A stretch of DNA of 64,000 nucleotides from Bacteroidota bacterium (GTDB lineage: Bacteria > Bacteroidota > Ignavibacteria > Ignavibacteriales > Ignavibacteriaceae): the NCBI GenBank assembly GCA_022708025.1, contig JAKIZM010000002.1, forward strand, positions 62,001 to 126,000, in the 5' to 3' direction. Made by a program: the position numbers and the translations under genes. Of this stretch, positions 2,401 through 12,648 are shown one piece after another (within the stretch, counting starts at the first letter, position 1; the number at the start of each line of letters is the position of its first letter). The notes under the pieces were generated by a model. That model saw nothing but the letters and a program-made list of their open reading frames with translations. It had not been told where the DNA came from and made no database searches.

Positions 2401-5091
2401 TTAAGTTGAAATCTTCAAATCTTTTAGCTCTTTTACCGGCTGGTAAACTACTCCTTCAAATTCCTCAAAATGTTTTTTACCGCATTTAATCTTATAATTT
2501 TCATGAGAATATCTTTGTTTTGGATCGAGTGAGTATTTAGTCTCTGCAACAAAATAAATTTTCTTGTCGTACTTAAAAATCAACGCCCAATCAGGATTGT
2601 AGGTACCAATCGGTGTGTTTATTACAAACCAGTTTGGAAGCTTTATATAAAACTCAACCCTTTCATTTGTTTCACACTGCTCAGCAAATTTCTTTTCCAC
2701 TTCTGAATCAAAGGGTATATAATTATAAAGTGTTTTATCTTCATTCTTAACTTTGTATAAATAATCTTTATAGCCATCCAGTTCTTTTTCTGCAAACAAT
2801 TCCATTGAGTAATATTGAGTTTCACCTATCTTTTCGTACTTAATTCCTTCAACCATCAATTCATTTAATACGTCTTTTATTTGTTTTACAGTCATATCGA
2901 GAAATAGTTGAGGATTCTTTAATACATCATTTATTCTTTCTGATTCGCAAAGTATTTTTATTATAGTTGATCTTGTCAAATCAGTTCGGCTTTGTATATA
3001 ACCTGCTATATCAGGTATTTCAGTTCTGTAATCTTCAATTTTATGAACACCGAAATTTATCTGGTATCCTTCTACTCCTTCTCGAACAAGATTAACACCC
3101 GTTTTCATTGTCCGAATCAAAGGTTGAGTTACTTCGGGCATTCCCTTTATTGCTTTTGCTGCAGCTCTAATTAACTCGTTAGTTGAATAATCAACTTTGT
3201 ATTTTGTTTTATGTTTTATTTTATCCCATAATTCAAGAAATCTTGGATCAGCTTCAAATGCTTTTCTTAATTTAACCGGGACTCTTTTTCTCTTATCTCT
3301 AATTCTACCTGTAAACTCAACTCCGCAATCTTCTTCAATTTCTTGCTGCAGCTTGTTTGCAAATTCTTCATAGCTTTCGTTTGCAATAACTGTTAAACGG
3401 TTTATATTTTTATCTAAAACACGATATCCATTTTCATTTACACAAAGCCTTAGACCTCTGCCAATTTCCTGGCGTTTTTTCATTTCAGAAGTTGTTTCAT
3501 TCAAAGTACATATCTGAAAAACATTTGTATTGTCCCAGCCTTCTCTTAATGCTGAGTGACTGAAAATAAACCGAAGAGGTTCTTCAGGATTTAATAATCT
3601 TTCTTTATCTCTCATTATTAATTGATAAGTACTATCATCATCTTTTGATTCACCTGTCTTTGAATCTTTAAAATTACCTTTGTTGTCCTGAGCGAAATAT
3701 CCATTATGGACTTTTTCTTTATCATAATTTATAACGTCAGAGAATTTTGTTTTTAGCTTCTCAAATGATTCCTCAAACCACAATGCAAATTTTCCTTTAG
3801 CTGGATTACCGTTTTCATCATAACTTCTGTAATTCGCAACCCTGTCTATAAAGAAAAGTGAAAGCACTTTTATTCTTTTTTCCTTTAGCTGTTTTTCCTT
3901 AATGAAATGTTCTTCGACGGCTTTCTGTATCTGAACTTTCATTATCTCGTCTTTGAAATCACCGGTTGTTTCACCTATATGAATTATTTTTCCATTCGAT
4001 AACTCTATGAACTTTTCTTCAAAATTTGCAGCTATTACAAGCAAATCTTTGTATTGTTCTCTGTTACCTGATAATTTGTAAAGATCATAATTCCTGGCAT
4101 CAACTTTAACAGATTTTCTCTTTACTCCGCTATCAGAGTTAACATCAATTTTTACTTTGGCTGTAATTTTTGTCTTGGCAGAAGTGATATTTTCAAGTTG
4201 AATGAATGCATCATTAAAATCATTTTCTGAATAAACAGAATCAACTTCAATTTGTTTTACAAGCCCGAGATCGTAAGCTTTAACAGGATCAAGTTTGTAG
4301 ATTAGATTATAACGATATTTATGAGTAGCTGAATATCTTAAAACAAAAAGAGGATTAAGGTTTGCAATTCCTTTTTTACGGATGTCCGTTTCCATATTTT
4401 GTGGTTCGTCGAGAATTACTATAGGTTTTGTTGCCTGAATATATTCAATCGGTCTTTTCCCTTGTGTTGAATCCCGTTCCAGATTAATAATATTTGTATC
4501 CTTTGCAAATGAATCAATATTAATTATCATTATCTGGATAGCATTACTTGTAGCAAAATTTTTAAGCTGAGGCAGACGTCTGCTGTCATAAACGAAATAA
4601 TTTACAGGCACACGGTTATATAAATTTTGCAGATGTTCTTCCGTTATTTGCAAACTCTTTAGCACTCCTTCGCGGATCGCAATGCTTGGAACAACAATAA
4701 CAAATTTTGTAAAACCATACAGCTTGTTTAACTCATAAATTGTCCGAAGGTAAACGTAGGTTTTTCCTGTTCCTGTTTCCATCTCAACTGTAAAGTTAGG
4801 GAAAGTAGTTTCAACAAATTGTTCTTCACCGTTAATTTCTCTGTAAGAAAATTTTTCTAATTTGTCTGAGTATGATAACTCATTTTCCAATTGAACTTGT
4901 TGAAGATTTTTAAGAAGATCGGTTTTTGTAATTGAGATTCTGTTACCAAAACCGAGTTCAGTAAGATCCAAAGTTCCATTTCCTGACAGTTCAAATTCAC
5001 CTTTACTAAGCGGTTGTCCTTCAAAAAGTCTTGTTACAGAACTTATTGCATCTAGCTGGTATTGCTGTTTGGAGTTAAAATGTAGTTTCAT
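2401..5091 (-). CDS. res: type III restriction enzyme, Res helicase-nuclease subunit
   Basis: An 896-residue Res subunit of a type III restriction-modification system. With Mod it translocates or diffuses on DNA and cleaves near unmethylated sites. The SF2 helicase has Walker A METGTGKT at about residues 104-111 and a DEPQ box at about 228-231. A motif VI-like region (ETTSEMKKRQEIGRGLRL) lies in mid-protein. A C-terminal PD-(D/E)xK-type nuclease is visible as PDWALIF...FVAETK. The ATG at 5091 (MKLHFNSKQQ) is preferred over an in-frame TTG at 5094 and begins four bases after the darG stop. It is the last gene of the operon. A broken second copy of its 5' end lies at 6761-6817. Confidence 0.93.
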   Translation of the reverse strand: MKLHFNSKQQYQLDAISSVTRLFEGQPLSKGEFELSGNGTLDLTELGFGNRISITKTDLLKNLQQVQLENELSYSDKLEKFSYREINGEEQFVETTFPNFTVEMETGTGKTYVYLRTIYELNKLYGFTKFVIVVPSIAIREGVLKSLQITEEHLQNLYNRVPVNYFVYDSRRLPQLKNFATSNAIQIMIINIDSFAKDTNIINLERDSTQGKRPIEYIQATKPIVILDEPQNMETDIRKKGIANLNPLFVLRYSATHKYRYNLIYKLDPVKAYDLGLVKQIEVDSVYSENDFNDAFIQLENITSAKTKITAKVKIDVNSDSGVKRKSVKVDARNYDLYKLSGNREQYKDLLVIAANFEEKFIELSNGKIIHIGETTGDFKDEIMKVQIQKAVEEHFIKEKQLKEKRIKVLSLFFIDRVANYRSYDENGNPAKGKFALWFEESFEKLKTKFSDVINYDKEKVHNGYFAQDNKGNFKDSKTGESKDDDSTYQLIMRDKERLLNPEEPLRFIFSHSALREGWDNTNVFQICTLNETTSEMKKRQEIGRGLRLCVNENGYRVLDKNINRLTVIANESYEEFANKLQQEIEEDCGVEFTGRIRDKRKRVPVKLRKAFEADPRFLELWDKIKHKTKYKVDYSTNELIRAAAKAIKGMPEVTQPLIRTMKTGVNLVREGVEGYQINFGVHKIEDYRTEIPDIAGYIQSRTDLTRSTIIKILCESERINDVLKNPQLFLDMTVKQIKDVLNELMVEGIKYEKIGETQYYSMELFAEKELDGYKDYLYKVKNEDKTLYNYIPFDSEVEKKFAEQCETNERVEFYIKLPNWFVINTPIGTYNPDWALIFKYDKKIYFVAETKYSLDPKQRYSHENYKIKCGKKHFEEFEGVVYQPVKELKDLKIST

Positions 5092-5095
5092 CAAA

Positions 5096-6136
5096 CTAAT
5101 TGTAGTTGAAATATTGAGTTAGTCTCTCTCTTGCTACATCAATGTGATATGTTTTGAACATTTTCTTTTTGCGGTCAGTCCAGTTCTTAATTTCTGAAAG
5201 CGCGTCTTCGGCTGCGAGGATTGATTTTTTCTGTAGGAATATATAATCTATAGTACCTAATAATTCGAGTCCAAACGGTGTTTCAAAATCCCTTATTAAA
5301 GCTAAAACACTGTTTACTCTTTCTTTCTGTTCATCAGTCAGATTCTTTTCAAAGTAATCTTCAACCTCACTGATTTTTGAAGAATTAATTCTAAGTGGTA
5401 TTGACGGTTTTGAATCATCCAATGATTTATAAAAAATATAATCATTTCGTAATGCTTTTAACACAGGTTTCAGATTATATGCAAAGGGTCCGTAAAATCC
5501 CTTTTCAAATCTAAGTTGTAATGGTTCCCCAAGTCTTTGTAAAAAATATGTAATCTTTTGTACAACAAGAAAGTTGATTTCATAGCCCATTACAAGGTAT
5601 TTATTCATTATATACAACATCATGGCGCGGGCAGGTGTTAAGTGCGAACTGGTTTTAACTGTTGAAGGTTTTTCTTCGAACTGTTCTGATGGTTCAATTA
5701 TAATTATTTCCATATTTTCTTTGAACTCATCCATAACTTCTACAATCATTTGTTTAACACAGTGCCAGTCTAGTTTGCCGCTGCCGCTTCCAAGAGGAGG
5801 AATAGCAATTGAAGCAACTTTATGTTCTCTTAACCATTCGGCTAATGATTTCAAACCCGCTTCAATCCACTTATACTGTGATGGAAAGCGCCAATGATTT
5901 TTTGTCGGGAAGTTAATAATATACTTAGGGAAAAATTCGTTTGTCTCAGTAACAAATATTTTTCCTATATCGATATTTCCTTCTTCACAAGCTCTTTTAT
6001 AAAGCTTATAATTTTCAGGAAAGGTTTCTTTAAATGCCAGAGCAACTCCTTTACCCATTATTCCTTTTAAGTTTACGGAATTTACAAGAGCTTCTGCTTT
6101 TACACTTAAAATATTTTTCTTTTCAAAAGTGATCAT
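5096..6136 (-). CDS. darG: DarG-type macrodomain antitoxin
   Basis: A 346-residue DarG, the partner of DarT. The family removes ADP-ribose from DNA thymidines and also binds and neutralises the toxin. The N-terminal macrodomain (about 1-150) shows AEALVNSVN, GIMGKGVALAF and PPLGSGSGKLDW. K79 in FPTKNHWR is the probable counterpart of the catalytic lysine described for DarG. The C-terminal part (about 165-346) has the stretch YFLQRLGEPLQLRFEKG followed by FYGPFAYNL, as in DarG toxin-binding domains. The start abuts the darT stop with no gap, and res follows after four bases, so translation is probably coupled. Confidence 0.9.
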   Translation of the reverse strand: MITFEKKNILSVKAEALVNSVNLKGIMGKGVALAFKETFPENYKLYKRACEEGNIDIGKIFVTETNEFFPKYIINFPTKNHWRFPSQYKWIEAGLKSLAEWLREHKVASIAIPPLGSGSGKLDWHCVKQMIVEVMDEFKENMEIIIIEPSEQFEEKPSTVKTSSHLTPARAMMLYIMNKYLVMGYEINFLVVQKITYFLQRLGEPLQLRFEKGFYGPFAYNLKPVLKALRNDYIFYKSLDDSKPSIPLRINSSKISEVEDYFEKNLTDEQKERVNSVLALIRDFETPFGLELLGTIDYIFLQKKSILAAEDALSEIKNWTDRKKKMFKTYHIDVARERLTQYFNYN

Positions 6137-6754
6137 TTAATAGTACCAGGAATTTTCAATAGTTACCGGAATATTAAGATTATTTCTATGAAGTATATCC
6201 TTAATATAATCATTCGATTCTTGATTGTAAACTGCAATGCCGGTTACTGCTGCAAAAGGCATCTCATTGAACACAAGACATTCAGCTTCCTTTCTTCTTT
6301 TACGGTCTGGATCTGATTCTGTGTTATTCCAGGTTCTTGCATTTATTGTTTTCCAGTCAAGTTGGTTAAGGTATTGTACATCATTAAAGAATTGAGTATA
6401 GGCTGCAAATGAATGACCGTCAGTAAAAATAAAATGACAGTTCAGTTCTACTAATTTTTCTATTGAGCTTATTAAATAAATTATTTCACTCTGAAGTCTC
6501 TTCTCGACATCATAACCATTTTTAATGCAATACAGCATGGGAGAACGTACACCAAAATAAAATGAAATATAATCTCTCATCACTCCAAAAGGCGATATAA
6601 TTATTTGTTTTGATCCTCTTTGTCTTATTAATTCTGTTTCCCCGATGGAAATATAGTCTGGATTAGCACCAAGGTTTGGTGCGGATAGTTTATTTTCTTT
6701 AATTAATATCTGAAGGTTATCACGGTGTATAATTCTATAAATATAAACGGGCAT
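6137..6754 (-). CDS. darT: DarT-type DNA ADP-ribosyltransferase toxin
   Basis: A 205-residue DarT, which transfers ADP-ribose from NAD+ onto thymidine in single-stranded DNA; darTG modules act as toxin-antitoxin and anti-phage systems. Visible family features are the N-terminal YRIIHRDNLQ segment, arginines around 44-46, YISFYFGVRSPMLY, and the KEAECLV stretch whose Glu (E158, or E156) is the presumed catalytic residue. The C-terminus is IPVTIENSWYY. Length and order (toxin first, DarG directly after) fit the family. The key residues appear intact, so it should be active. The upstream gap is filled by a res remnant. Confidence 0.9.
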   Translation of the reverse strand: MPVYIYRIIHRDNLQILIKENKLSAPNLGANPDYISIGETELIRQRGSKQIIISPFGVMRDYISFYFGVRSPMLYCIKNGYDVEKRLQSEIIYLISSIEKLVELNCHFIFTDGHSFAAYTQFFNDVQYLNQLDWKTINARTWNNTESDPDRKRRKEAECLVFNEMPFAAVTGIAVYNQESNDYIKDILHRNNLNIPVTIENSWYY

Positions 6755-6760
6755 AACATT

Positions 6761-6817
6761 ATTTGTTCTTCATATCACTTATCTGGTTTGCTGTCTTGAG
6801 TCAAAGTGGAGTTTCAT
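6761..6817 (-). pseudogene. broken 5' end of a second res gene
   Basis: The ATG at 6817 overlaps the stop of the AlbA_2 gene (ATGA) and reads MKLHFDSRQQTR before a stop. Eight of its first ten residues match the intact Res start (MKLHFNSKQQ at 5091), with different codons. The DNA match continues past the stop if one base and then nine bases are deleted relative to res (ACCAG, then ATAAGT). A later TGAAGAACAA resembles TGAAGGACAA in res. It fills nearly the whole space between the AlbA_2 gene and darT. The most likely reading is the remnant of an older res that was once translationally coupled to the AlbA_2 gene. Confidence 0.65.
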
Positions 6818-7974
6818 ATTGTAGGTCTTTTAAGCACAAGACGAAACTGATTATTATCAATCTCATTCAAAAAATCAATGTTGGAATATTTAGAGATAGC
6901 ACGAATTACTCCCGTTCCCATACCACGATAAGGTAATAAATTATTCTTAGTTATAAATGAAGTTAAGATTGGATTACGAATATTTGAAATACCGCTTTTA
7001 ATATTCTCTACAGTTAAATTATTAGGTAAAATACCTGGGCTATTTATTTCAACTCTATTGTCAAATATAAACAGGCGGATTGGTGCACTGATAAAGTAAT
7101 CTCTATGCATTAATGCATTAGCAACCAACTCTTCAAAAACTTCCTCTGGTATCTCTAAAACACCTTGGATATTAAACGATTCTGACTTTTGAACTTTTCT
7201 TAAGTTTCGCTTAATAAATGACATTGCTAATGCGAATTGATTTTGGACTCTGCCAGAAATATCCTCACTATCACGATATTTTGTTCCAGCAATATCATTC
7301 CCATAGTAAGAAACAGCTTTGATAATAAATTGAGGTTTAAATTTTTGAGGATTTTTTGCAAACACAAGTAAGCCTGCTAAGTTCAATTCTTGATCTTTAG
7401 CAATACCTATATTTTCTAAAAACTGAATTAAAGGTATTTCTAACTTTTCAATTTCTTGTGAATATACTGCCTTACAAAATTCTTTGAATAAATTTAGATC
7501 GAGTTCATCTATTGTTGCTGAACGCACTGGGACTTCATCAGCGTGGAAAATATCAGAACTTTGAAATAATCTTCTTAATTCTTCTTTTGATGTAACCTTT
7601 CTTTTATCAGAACCACTTTTTACCCAGACAGCGCCATCATTATCTAAATATGGCTTGTCTAATCCTTCCTCAATTTTAACAACGATTATCTTATTGTTAC
7701 CAATTTGTAAATTCTCGGTTATCGGATTTATTGGATTTTTTATATTGTTCGTTGCTGTATTAGAAATAAGTAAATTGATTCTTCTAATATCATCATCTGA
7801 CAAGCCGATAATATTATTGTTTTTGTCAACACCAATTAGGATAAAACCGCCATTAGTGTTTGCGAATGCAACCATCTCGCTTGCTAAAGATGTTGCATTT
7901 GTAACATCAACTTTAAATTGATGCTTGCTATCTTCACCTCTGGAAATAATTTCTAAAATTTCAAATTCATTCAT
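6814..7974 (-). CDS. AlbA_2 (Schlafen-type) and GHKL ATPase-like protein
   Basis: A 386-residue protein with an N-terminal AlbA_2/Schlafen-like domain (about 1-120; SKHQFKVDV, ASEMVAFANTNGG, YLDNDGAVWVKSG). The C-terminal region is of the HATPase_c_4 kind (EELVANALMHRDY, FIFDNRVEINSPG, RGMGTGVIRAI). Such proteins are often annotated as RecG-like or as putative DNA-binding regulators and are common beside restriction systems; their exact role is unsettled. The ATG at 7974 is chosen over one at 7995 because GGAGAG lies just upstream and the upstream gene stops at 7976. A remnant of res overlaps its stop codon. Confidence 0.82.
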   Translation of the reverse strand: MNEFEILEIISRGEDSKHQFKVDVTNATSLASEMVAFANTNGGFILIGVDKNNNIIGLSDDDIRRINLLISNTATNNIKNPINPITENLQIGNNKIIVVKIEEGLDKPYLDNDGAVWVKSGSDKRKVTSKEELRRLFQSSDIFHADEVPVRSATIDELDLNLFKEFCKAVYSQEIEKLEIPLIQFLENIGIAKDQELNLAGLLVFAKNPQKFKPQFIIKAVSYYGNDIAGTKYRDSEDISGRVQNQFALAMSFIKRNLRKVQKSESFNIQGVLEIPEEVFEELVANALMHRDYFISAPIRLFIFDNRVEINSPGILPNNLTVENIKSGISNIRNPILTSFITKNNLLPYRGMGTGVIRAISKYSNIDFLNEIDNNQFRLVLKRPTI

Positions 7975-7975
7975 T

Positions 7976-10615
7976 TTAATCTCTCCAAATTTCATAAATC
8001 ATATTTCTTTTATTAAAAGCTTCTTCGCCACCTTCCATAATATTTACTATCTCTTTTTGAATTAGTTTGCAATCGATACTACCCGAAGATGTTTCTAATT
8101 TATCGTTTGAATATTTACAACTAATTGTTTGTTCGCAATCACCTAATACTGGAATATTAGGATTATGTGTTGCAAAAATAAATTGTGTTTTCCCTTTTAA
8201 CCGGTTTATTTCTCTAATTACATCACTATAAATAGTTTGATTATCCAAATCATCTTCTGGTTGATCAATAATGACAACATCATTATCCTCCTTAGTTAGA
8301 ATAAATAGTATTAGAGCCGAGGCTCTTTGTCCCAATGATAGTCTATTTAGTTCGATTCCTTTATACAATAAAGTATATCTATCGGGTGTACGGAAAGTCA
8401 ATAAAGTTTCTTGTAATTCGATAAATCTGTTTCTAAAATTAGTTAGCTGCTCACCACCTCCTAGAAAATTTGATAGATCACTGTTGTTATTAAAAAGATC
8501 TTTGAATATTTGTAGTGTATCTGAATATGTATCTATGATCTTTTTAATATTCGTTTTCTGAATTCTGGTACCCTTTAAATTATCTTCTAAAAACCTGAAA
8601 TAACTTTCTTTATCCTGCTTATATTCAATACTTATTTTAACCGCAAGCCCTTTATTATTTAATTCATTCGTAGCTTCAACAAGATTAATAAACTCCACAT
8701 GATAAAGCTTTTCTAAATTATTTAAAGACTCTACAAGTTTTTTCTCAAGTAGAGTAAATTTATCTGCACGTTTACTTAATTCATCTAATTTAACATTTAA
8801 CACATTTAAACGAGAATGCAATTTCACAAAATCATCAGGATTGATTTGAGCAATATTTATAGATCTTTTAATCAGAGCAAATTCATCCTTCAGTCTGGAG
8901 TAAATATCCTGAAATTCACTCTTATAATTATCTAACTGCTTTATATTTAATTTAATCTTTGTAAGTACATTAAGGATGTTTATAATTGACTGACTTACAT
9001 CTGCTCCTACTATATTTATCTTATCAAATATCTGCTTGTTTTCCTCACTATTATATTTCAATAACTTAACAAAGTTATCATTATAATCTTTCAATTGTGA
9101 ATCAAGATCAGAAGTCATGGTTTTCAAAAAAGATGAAATTTGGTTTATTATACTTTCATCTTTTTCAAAGTTCAATTGTTTTTTAAGTTTATCTTGGATA
9201 TTGTATTCAGAGTATTTTTTTAATCGTTCTTCAACACCAGTTTTTTCTTCTATAATTTCATTCTTCTTGTCTAAGTCTTTTCTTAAGTCTTTAATTTCTC
9301 GTACTATTTTTATTATTTCTTGTTTCTGAATATTTATCTTTTCGCGTACATCTGTGACTTTGTGGCCAAAGAATTTATTAATTAAATCTGCTCCAAACCC
9401 TTCTTCTCCAATTTCACTCAAATCTTTTTGACCAAAGTAAAGAATGTTCAAGAGATTTTCATTTATTTTTAAATATGGAATTAATGTATCGTCACGATAA
9501 ACATTCGGCTTCTCATTATAGACACGCTGTACTTTATAGAATTTATCGTGTTTATCTCTTATAACTATTTCAAGCATACCACCACTGCGCATAAGATTGT
9601 AAACTATGTCGCTTTTGTAATCTGTATCTTTAGCTTTCGCACCAAAAGATATATCTAAACCGTAACGTATGGTCTCAAGTATTGTTGATTTACCACTCCC
9701 GCGAATACCAATTAGATTGTTCATATTATTGTTAAAATAGAGCACCTCATTATTGAGTAATCCTCCGGTAAATGAGATTGATTGTATATAACCATTTTTA
9801 ATTGGTAAAATACTTTCATTGATACGTTTTGATGTAGGTAAGAGCGCATATTTAACCGCATCAAAATTGAAATCACCCAGTTTAATATAAGTTACTTTTT
9901 CCAAGTTACCTTGAATATGTTTTTTACCAACTTCATCTAAACTCTTACAATCTGAACCCTCTACAAATGAAGGAAGTTTGTTGTTAAGCCAAGTGTTAAG
10001 TTTCTTTATATAATCTCCTGTTCGAACCTTCTGAAAACCCAAAACAAAATTTCTGAATAATTCATTACTCTCAAGTTCCATCATTCTGCTACCACCCAAT
10101 TCCTTAACAAAACCTTTAGGGTCCTCAATATGTGCCATTATTACAAATGAATCTCTACCATCGTTCTTATGTTCATCTAACTTTTTAAGAAGTTCAATTA
10201 AACTGTACTTACACATTGAATTCTCGTTTTCAAAATTAGAAATCCCTTCAAAAGCTGAAATTAAAAAAGCATTTATATAATTTGTTCCATCTTTATACCA
10301 TTTTTCATAATTAAATACTATCAAACAATGTAGCCCATTTTGTCCTTCTTTAACGGATAATTCAACACCAGGTAATAAAAATATTTCTTCTTTCTTTCCT
10401 TTAGAATATAAGTCTTTAAACTCATCAAGATTAAATTTATTGTGATTTGTAATTACCCCCACACCTATTTTATTATCTTTTAAACGTTGAATATACTTTT
10501 GAGTAAACTCGTTAGGATTACCATCATATTTAAATTCATTGTCTGACTTAGTATGCAAATGAAAATCTGCACGTAACCATGTGCTTCCATTTTTGAATAC
10601 TTCGTAATTATTCAT
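7976..10615 (-). CDS. PHP-domain plus SMC-like ATPase (TrlF type)
   Basis: An 879-residue protein joining an N-terminal PHP phosphoesterase to an SMC/RecN-like ATPase. The PHP part shows DFHLHT (about 17-22), ITNHNKF (55-61) and GVELS (83-87), plausible metal ligands. Walker A is GIRGSGKST (303-311). A long coiled-coil region follows (about 410-700, rich in E/K/L/I). The signature-like LSLGQRASA, Walker B VVIIDQPEDDLDN and FATHNPNI close the ATPase. This architecture matches proteins named TrlF. It lies 11 bases after mod and one base before the next start. It is a plausible nuclease or sensor in the defence operon; its substrate is unknown. Confidence 0.85.
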   Translation of the reverse strand: MNNYEVFKNGSTWLRADFHLHTKSDNEFKYDGNPNEFTQKYIQRLKDNKIGVGVITNHNKFNLDEFKDLYSKGKKEEIFLLPGVELSVKEGQNGLHCLIVFNYEKWYKDGTNYINAFLISAFEGISNFENENSMCKYSLIELLKKLDEHKNDGRDSFVIMAHIEDPKGFVKELGGSRMMELESNELFRNFVLGFQKVRTGDYIKKLNTWLNNKLPSFVEGSDCKSLDEVGKKHIQGNLEKVTYIKLGDFNFDAVKYALLPTSKRINESILPIKNGYIQSISFTGGLLNNEVLYFNNNMNNLIGIRGSGKSTILETIRYGLDISFGAKAKDTDYKSDIVYNLMRSGGMLEIVIRDKHDKFYKVQRVYNEKPNVYRDDTLIPYLKINENLLNILYFGQKDLSEIGEEGFGADLINKFFGHKVTDVREKINIQKQEIIKIVREIKDLRKDLDKKNEIIEEKTGVEERLKKYSEYNIQDKLKKQLNFEKDESIINQISSFLKTMTSDLDSQLKDYNDNFVKLLKYNSEENKQIFDKINIVGADVSQSIINILNVLTKIKLNIKQLDNYKSEFQDIYSRLKDEFALIKRSINIAQINPDDFVKLHSRLNVLNVKLDELSKRADKFTLLEKKLVESLNNLEKLYHVEFINLVEATNELNNKGLAVKISIEYKQDKESYFRFLEDNLKGTRIQKTNIKKIIDTYSDTLQIFKDLFNNNSDLSNFLGGGEQLTNFRNRFIELQETLLTFRTPDRYTLLYKGIELNRLSLGQRASALILFILTKEDNDVVIIDQPEDDLDNQTIYSDVIREINRLKGKTQFIFATHNPNIPVLGDCEQTISCKYSNDKLETSSGSIDCKLIQKEIVNIMEGGEEAFNKRNMIYEIWRD

Positions 10616-10626
10616 ATTTAACTCAT

Positions 10627-12648
10627 TTAAATTGTTATTAATTCCACTCCTGCATCCTTCATCTGCAGGGCGGTGTTTGTTTTTAACTGATCATTTCCTG
10701 CAAATAAATTATCCAGAATAATGCAGGTCTGCGGATTTACTTTTAATATTGCATCAATTATTGTCTGATCAATTCTACTAAGTACAACAGCAAGCTTATC
10801 TGCAACTAAATAAAAACCTTCTTTTTGTTCTCCCATAGGGACAAGAATCTTATCCGATAGTGTGTAGCCTGATTTTAATATTAACTCATACAACATATTT
10901 ATTTCCTGTGCTTCAGGTTTTAGCTGGGTGTCAAAGAGGTTAACCATTTTATTCAGGTCATCTTCAGATTCGATAATATCGCTGCGCCAGTGTTTGAAAT
11001 TTGATGAAGATAATTTAAATACTTTGAAACCCTGTGTGTAACCAGCCTGTCCATTTTCTAAAGATTTTTTCAACTTCTCATCAATCTCATTATCATCATT
11101 TAACTCAAGTTCAGTTTGATGATTTTCTTCCGTGCCACCCTCTCCTTTGGAGAGGGACGGGGTGAGGCTTTTTATTACTCTGCGGATTCTTTCTTTACAA
11201 ATATCCGCTATTGTTTTATATCCAGCTTTAAAAGCTTCACTATCTTCTGCTGTTTTTTCCGGAAGCTGAACAAGAATGAATTTTCTGTTTCCTCCATCTT
11301 CTTTATTTAACTCTAATACTGCCTGTGCTGTTGTACCTGAACCGGCGAAGAAGTCAAAAACTAAGTCTTCTTTTTCACAAACTACATCTATCAAAAACTT
11401 TATCAATTGATATGGTTTAGGAAAGTCCATTATTTTTTTGCCTAATAATTTGATTATTTCATCGGTACCAGTTTTTGTGTTTCCAACTTCTTCCGGCAAG
11501 ACAGTTTTCGGATGAATTGTTCCTCTTTCTTTTTCATACCATAGAATTCCCTGTGAATTAAAATAAAATTTCAAAACCTTTTGTCCTTTTGAATCGTAAG
11601 TCTCTTCACCATTTAACCATGATATAATCTGGTTTCTCATTGCCCACCCAGCACCAATTGTTACTGGTTCTTTTAGCTTTCCATTTTCAAAAATCATCTT
11701 ACCAGACTTTATAAATTCCTTTTCTGATCCACCTAATTCTATTTCAAACTCAGCATTTTCTCCTTCAAACTCCATCCCAGCAGGAAATGTTATGTCACTT
11801 TCAGGATTATCTTTGGAAATTTTTTTTAACGCACCGTGTCTTATGCTTCCACCGTTACTATCACTAAAATATTTTAAGCCATCTTTTGATTTAGCAAATG
11901 AAAGTATGTATTCGTGGGATCCGGTGAAATGACCCGCTTGAGAACCACTCCTTAAATTCCAAACAAGTTGTGCCAAGAAATTCTCCTCCCCAAAAATTTC
12001 ATTCATAATCATTCTTAAGTTATGCACTTCATTATCATCAATTGAAACAAAGATAACACCGTCATCTCTCAATAAATTTCTTGCAATATAAAGACGAGGA
12101 TACATCATCGAGAGCCAGTTGCTGTGATAGTGTCCGCTTTCTTTGCTGTTCTTTCTGAAAAATCCTTCTTTCAACAAATAACCATCTTCACTTTTCTCTC
12201 CAATGCGCTTAAGGTATTCTTCTTTGCTTTCAGAAAATTTATCCGGATAAATAAAGCTGTCGTTTCCTGTGTTATAAGGAGGGTCAATGTATATCATCTT
12301 TATTTTACCAAAGTAGGATTTCTGCAGGACTTTAAGGACTTCGAGATTTTCGCCTTCGATAAAAATATTAGCCCCCTCTTTATCTCCCCCAAAGGGGGAG
12401 AAATTCTCAGGATAAGATTCTTCAGGAACAGGTTTTAATGTTGCAGAGGTTCTTTGCTGCAACACTCTGAACACATCAGATTTACCAGCCCAGTTCAGGT
12501 TGTAACGTTCATTCTCAAAATTGATATCTTCACCAAGAGAAGCTTTAAGCTTTTCCCAGTCAATTTTTTCATCAGTAAAAGCTTCAGGAATAATTCCTTT
12601 AAGCTTATTCAGTTTATCAGAAAGAATGTCGAGTGATTTGCCATCCAT
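10627..12648 (-). CDS. mod: type III DNA methyltransferase, Mod subunit
   Basis: A 673-residue Mod of the beta class: the catalytic DPPY motif (122-125, in MIYIDPPYNTGND) precedes the SAM-binding FAGSGTT motif (about 430-440). Mod recognises the target site, methylates adenine and also directs Res. It is the first gene of the operon; the start is the ATG at 12648. Two unrelated GC-rich palindromes lie inside the frame. One encodes the segment around residues 82-94 (NFSPFGGDKEGAN). The other encodes about 504-516 (LTPSLSKGEGGTE), between the catalytic core and the C-terminal part. The frame stays open through both. Confidence 0.94.
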   Translation of the reverse strand: MDGKSLDILSDKLNKLKGIIPEAFTDEKIDWEKLKASLGEDINFENERYNLNWAGKSDVFRVLQQRTSATLKPVPEESYPENFSPFGGDKEGANIFIEGENLEVLKVLQKSYFGKIKMIYIDPPYNTGNDSFIYPDKFSESKEEYLKRIGEKSEDGYLLKEGFFRKNSKESGHYHSNWLSMMYPRLYIARNLLRDDGVIFVSIDDNEVHNLRMIMNEIFGEENFLAQLVWNLRSGSQAGHFTGSHEYILSFAKSKDGLKYFSDSNGGSIRHGALKKISKDNPESDITFPAGMEFEGENAEFEIELGGSEKEFIKSGKMIFENGKLKEPVTIGAGWAMRNQIISWLNGEETYDSKGQKVLKFYFNSQGILWYEKERGTIHPKTVLPEEVGNTKTGTDEIIKLLGKKIMDFPKPYQLIKFLIDVVCEKEDLVFDFFAGSGTTAQAVLELNKEDGGNRKFILVQLPEKTAEDSEAFKAGYKTIADICKERIRRVIKSLTPSLSKGEGGTEENHQTELELNDDNEIDEKLKKSLENGQAGYTQGFKVFKLSSSNFKHWRSDIIESEDDLNKMVNLFDTQLKPEAQEINMLYELILKSGYTLSDKILVPMGEQKEGFYLVADKLAVVLSRIDQTIIDAILKVNPQTCIILDNLFAGNDQLKTNTALQMKDAGVELITI
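11135..11169. repeat. GC-rich palindromic mini-element inside mod (3' part)
   Basis: The core is an 8-bp perfect stem (CCCTCTCC/GGAGAGGG, 11138-11156) with a 3-base TTT loop, followed by a GC-rich tail (ACGGGGTGAGGC). It is sharply richer in GC than the flanks and encodes the low-complexity LTPSLSKGEGG stretch. It looks like an in-frame insertion of a dispersed palindrome. Confidence 0.7.
12371..12403. repeat. GC-rich palindromic mini-element inside mod (5' part)
   Basis: TCTCCCCC-AAA-GGGGGAGA forms an 8-bp perfect stem at 12383-12401, preceded by GCCCCCTCTTTA. It encodes the SPFGGDKEGA stretch just upstream of the DPPY motif. It has a different sequence from the second palindrome in the gene but the same layout: an 8-bp stem with a three-base homopolymer loop. 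Confidence 0.65.

Follow-up and report, generated by a model that had tools for sequence, protein, structure and literature searches.

Independent defense genes nested within restriction-modification (R-M) operons have been described previously. In EPEC, DarTG2 is embedded between hsdS and hsdR of a Type I operon in the RRDM island, and this site was termed a potential recombination hotspot for defense systems by the authors (PMC12255303). Similarly, the locus examined here carries darTG inside an R-M operon and ahead of the restriction subunit; it differs in being type III rather than Type I, and the accessible part of the EPEC report does not mention a remnant of the restriction-gene start (PMC12255303). 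TgvAB, whose genes are GmrSD-like, is embedded in a Type I operon of Vibrio cholerae VPI-2 and likewise represents an independent defense system nested in an R-M operon, although its host operon is again Type I and scars are not discussed in the accessible portion of that paper (PMC11411939). It was also noted earlier that HEPN proteins, including Abi2/AbiF, are embedded in R-M operons (PMC3710099). The associated abiF RNA and Abi_2 (AbiF) modules (Rfam RF03085; PMC12373285) were encountered in our comparison set, with Abi_2 as cargo in operons L103, L089, and L092 and the abiF RNA in L103 and L092, and are thus other occupants of the slot rather than the cargo of the present locus. A mechanistic parallel comes from the T6SS effector genes of V. 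cholerae, which were displaced sequentially, with homology-facilitated illegitimate recombination being proposed (PMC5361080). In both settings, modules are exchanged next to a conserved anchor and parts of what they displaced stay behind; however, the T6SS remnants are whole immunity genes, whereas those described below are gene-start pieces of 33-68 bp, with the downstream gene serving as the anchor (PMC5361080). While darTG has been described within a Type I system (PMC12255303), our literature search, which covered few subscription journals, found no report of res-start scars in type III operons.

We examined the window, the whole 64,000-nucleotide stretch of DNA analysed here, and found a type III R-M operon on its minus strand in the order mod, PHP/AAA ATPase, AlbA_2, darT, darG, and res. 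The type III methyltransferase gene mod (10627..12648) carries an N6_N4_Mtase domain (Pfam PF01555; PADLOC MTase_III, E = 2.2e-166), and the intact res gene for the restriction subunit (2401..5091) carries helicase and endonuclease domains (PF04851 and PF19778; PADLOC REase_III, E = 1.2e-287). The upstream cargo consists of the PHP/AAA ATPase gene (7976..10615) and the AlbA_2 gene (SLFN_AlbA_2 and HATPase_c_4 domains; 6814..7995). These are followed by darT, encoding a predicted DNA ADP-ribosyltransferase toxin (6137..6754; PF14487, E = 3.8e-53), and the adjacent darG, encoding a predicted macro-domain antitoxin (5096..6136; Macro domain, PADLOC DarG E = 5.7e-111), an arrangement of DarT and then a macro-domain DarG that points to a DarTG system. 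The darG stop lies 4 nt ahead of the res ATG. It was also noted that a 95-bp tandem repeat (2.2 copies, 99% identical) occupies positions 2034-2242, just downstream of res.

Between AlbA_2 and darT, we identified a 38 bp match to the start of res (6780..6817, minus strand). An earlier note on this DNA had read the ATG at 6817-6815 as overlapping the AlbA_2 stop codon (TGA, 6816-6814; ORF 7995..6814), and this ATGA overlap was seen on the minus strand. The ORF opened by this ATG encodes MKLHFDSRQQTR (12 codons, 6817..6779) and stops 24 bases short of the darT start at 6754; the remaining spacer (6755..6779) is without a significant res match. Its first residues, MKLHFDSRQQ, are identical at 8 of 10 positions to the intact Res start at 5091 (MKLHFNSKQQ), as had been claimed, and the accompanying statement that the codons differ applies to half of them (5 of 10, 3 of those synonymous). 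Alignment of 6817..6780 with 5091..5053 gave a local score of 41 over approximately 38 aligned bases, compared to a mean of 15.7 (sd 2.4, maximum 30) in 5000 dinucleotide shuffles and to 28 at the best other place in the 64 kb window. When the first 75 bases of res were used as the query over 9 kb upstream, 300 shuffled queries scored no higher than 30. The locus therefore holds a significant, truncated match to the 5' end of a neighboring gene, and the comparison with shuffled sequence on which the earlier reading had been staked came out in its favor. The similarity had been said to continue for 40-55 bases, a length that emerges only if gaps are permissive. Because the sequence past MKLHFDSRQQ taken alone is not significant against res (P ~0.10-0.35), the supported length is about 38 bases.

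We then considered where such a sequence could come from. The earlier note had proposed an ancestral operon in which AlbA_2 directly preceded res with coupled translation, and this gene order exists. AlbA_2 immediately precedes res, with darTG absent, in six genomes (L020, L021, L022, L023, L024, and L094), and five of these (L020 to L024) have the full mod-PHP/ATPase-AlbA_2-res order, the mod of L024 being present only as its 3' end at a contig edge and L094 beginning within the ATPase gene. The Res proteins of these operons start with MKLHFD in 5 of 6 cases. The proposed coupling fared less well, as the AlbA_2-res spacing was 0 to ~12 nt in three genomes and ~138 to 258 nt in three, and the exact ATGA overlap was not seen in these six genomes. 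Nor is the spacer a conserved feature of darTG operons, which would have counted against the earlier reading: among 391 class genomes no other darTG was found beside this res, and in 80 genomes of the family no DNA match extends across the AlbA_2-darT junction.

To place the fossil in a wider setting, the res starts of 81 related operons were scanned, 71 of which had at least 1.2 kb of upstream DNA. For each operon, as much as 9 kb of sequence ahead of res was queried both with a profile built from the first 10 residues and with the res-start DNA. Clear fossils were found in 4 of the 71 operons, namely the window, L079, L089, and L103, with profile scores of 17.2-27.7 (highest other sense match 12.5; antisense maximum 12.4) and DNA scores of 41-99 (antisense maximum 29). 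Such a scar had been called rare, a description that does not fit at least 4 of 71 operons with different cargo. Each of the three additional fossils is flanked by an upstream gene on one side and a cargo gene on the other. In L079, a DUF7002 gene ends as ATGA on a 33 bp fossil that is followed by a YhcG/DUF1016 nuclease gene and res, and in L089 a large gene with no Pfam match ends as ATGA on a 67 bp fossil, behind which lie Abi_2 and res. L103 contains Bro-N-like, SIR2, HerA, and KTSC genes, then a 68 bp fossil, an abiF RNA, Abi_2, and res. The fossil in the window is thus real and part of a recurrent pattern, which supports its reading as a scar, and its counterparts in three other genomes suggest repeated insertion of defense genes at the res start.

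Several further candidates were recorded during the scan. A 26 bp match in L148 (DNA score 37) was retained as no more than a weak fifth candidate, since its Fic gene also occurs in sister operons that have no fossil, and those in L166 and L109 (scores 35 and 33) were unconvincing. Inspection by eye of the interval from AlbA_2 to Abi_2 in L092 revealed no fossil; instead, three tandem abiF RNAs, 135 bp apart, were encountered (L092:3923-4229, minus strand) before an Abi_2 gene whose end forms an ATGA overlap with res. Few relatives of the operon were present in viral and phage collections, and of the viral operons only L100 and L101 allowed an upstream scan, which revealed no fossil.

Chance resemblance is hardly credible. 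The element is short, which would favor coincidence, but its score is far above both the shuffles and the antisense control, and it sits exactly on the AlbA_2 stop and recurs in the corresponding position in other genomes. We also regard it as very improbable that the short ORF, instead of being a relic, is preserved as a leader or for translational coupling and resembles the res start by coincidence. The L079 fossil ORF does end in ATGA on the start codon of the next gene and could couple translation, and the synonymous differences described below could also reflect selection on the peptide. However, most operons with this type of cargo slot lack the ORF (present in 4 of 71), the L103 copy looks decayed, and no darTG operon family conserves it.

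The scan additionally included res-interior control windows, which gave no comparable match beside cargo. The one strong interior match was a 61-bp relic (res nt 76-137) at 6160-6220 of L111, a locus on the plasmid of the archaeon Methanomethylovorans hollandica, where it lies upstream of mod; interior matches in L144, L079, and L022 looked like chance. These controls bear on a history in which a second operon or circle integrated by one crossover, producing two full res genes, with a later deletion taking nearly all of the first. The remnant expected from such events is the same, integration through a single crossover occurs commonly, and one genome (G286) has two copies of this res. Nevertheless, no operon with two complete tandem res genes was found among the 81, and res-interior fragments were missing beside bacterial cargo, so that we consider this history quite improbable.

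A further question is whether the fossil was left by replacement with a diverged cargo-res unit or by local duplication, in which darTG entered just inside res, the first tens of res bases were copied to both sides (by staggered-break fill-in, template switching, or target-site duplication), and the upstream copy decayed. Under replacement, the differences between fossil and resident res are expected to be mostly synonymous because both copies diverged while they were working genes. Synonymous differences accounted for 3 of 5 in the window, 3 of 3 in L079, 6 of 7 in L089, and 4 of 12 in L103. Pooling the window, L079, and L089 gave 12 of 15, compared to an average of 5.6 of 15 in simulated duplication followed by decay (P = 0.00025); this figure omits L103, and with all four fossils the count is 16 of 27 (P = 0.014). 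For the window by itself, with 3 synonymous and 2 nonsynonymous differences, the comparison does not tell replacement and duplication apart (P = 0.26). The L103 fossil resembles a decayed copy, as 8 of its 12 differences are nonsynonymous, which is what duplication would predict. When compared with 46 res starts, each fossil was also closest or joint-closest to the resident one of its own operon, a result that fits duplication and that fits replacement as well, since homologous recombination also needs similar partners. Beyond the synonymous excess, duplication is at odds with the varying fossil lengths (33-68 bp), unlike a fixed target-site duplication, and with the consensus D6 retained in the window's fossil where the resident res has an unusual N6. 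We therefore rate local duplication as unlikely. The pooled excess favors copies that had diverged before the fossil formed, and hence replacement by a diverged cargo-res unit, a sequence-level argument that is not decisive for the window alone.

Taken together, a scar of the old res start, left by block replacement with darTG-res, is the best explanation, and we hold it with somewhat better than even confidence. The match, the ancestral order in other genomes, the recurrence with other cargo, and the exchangeable cargo before near-identical res genes were all directly observed. The history we propose is the most likely one, and within it we infer the two-sided recombination mechanism and the donor. 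The 38 bp would be the start of an older res that once stood directly after AlbA_2, and darT-darG would have arrived with the 5' end of a res from a related type III operon attached. On its right side, this DNA most likely recombined homologously within res; its left side would have been joined without homology within a few tens of bases of the old res start, where the match ends after ~38 bp (the donor was not found). This scheme would resemble homology-facilitated illegitimate recombination, leaving the old start as a scar with a new intact cargo-res unit behind it. As a possible side effect, the leftover start may act as a 12-codon leader after AlbA_2, with translation restarting on darT. 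The earlier note had likewise invoked a darT-darG-res block that recombined at the res 5' end. Replacement as such is favored by the synonymous differences in three of the four fossils; a donor operon with darG-res was not found in the class and family searches, nor was the right-hand crossover, with no breakpoint being visible along res in comparisons with its closest relatives, all of which have low N-terminal Res identity.

We further characterized the slot between mod and res across the related operons. Its contents comprised GmrSD, Bro-N, AAA+DUF4276, DUF6978+DUF1828/1829, Fic, Abi_2, YhcG, AlbA_2, others, or nothing, and the last cargo gene overlapped res by exactly 4 nt (ATGA) in 26 of 58 operons. 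Different cargo was found before Res proteins that are 91% identical (L020 and L103) or 92% identical (L075 and L076), showing that the defense genes between mod and res are interchangeable. In the mod-res slot of L079 (8143-11806), an IrrE-like protein with a weak DarG match, an adenylosuccinate synthetase-like protein, and the DUF7002 protein are encoded in a row, and in L103 (8194-11156) a SIR2-like gene is followed by a HerA helicase gene within the type III operon. Among L142-L150, a small Fic/Doc or a larger Fic gene ends as ATGA on res in most operons, and the gene preceding Fic is shorter in those with the larger Fic gene.

We tentatively propose, at a little short of even confidence, that the type III res start is a recurrent docking joint. 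Cassettes such as DarTG, AbiF, YhcG nuclease, Fic, GmrSD, and others would enter pre-fused to a res start, replace the resident by one-sided homologous recombination, keep translational coupling, and leave short scars of successive swaps. As a rule, present-day gene order is the sole basis for inferring how restriction operons acquired unrelated defense genes, whereas such scars are direct sequence traces of the embedding events. They fix the position of the joint and show that the previous occupant was directly followed by res. Scars of this kind can be counted across genomes, providing a measure of cassette turnover, and they suggest the start of the restriction subunit as a landing place to search for new defense systems.
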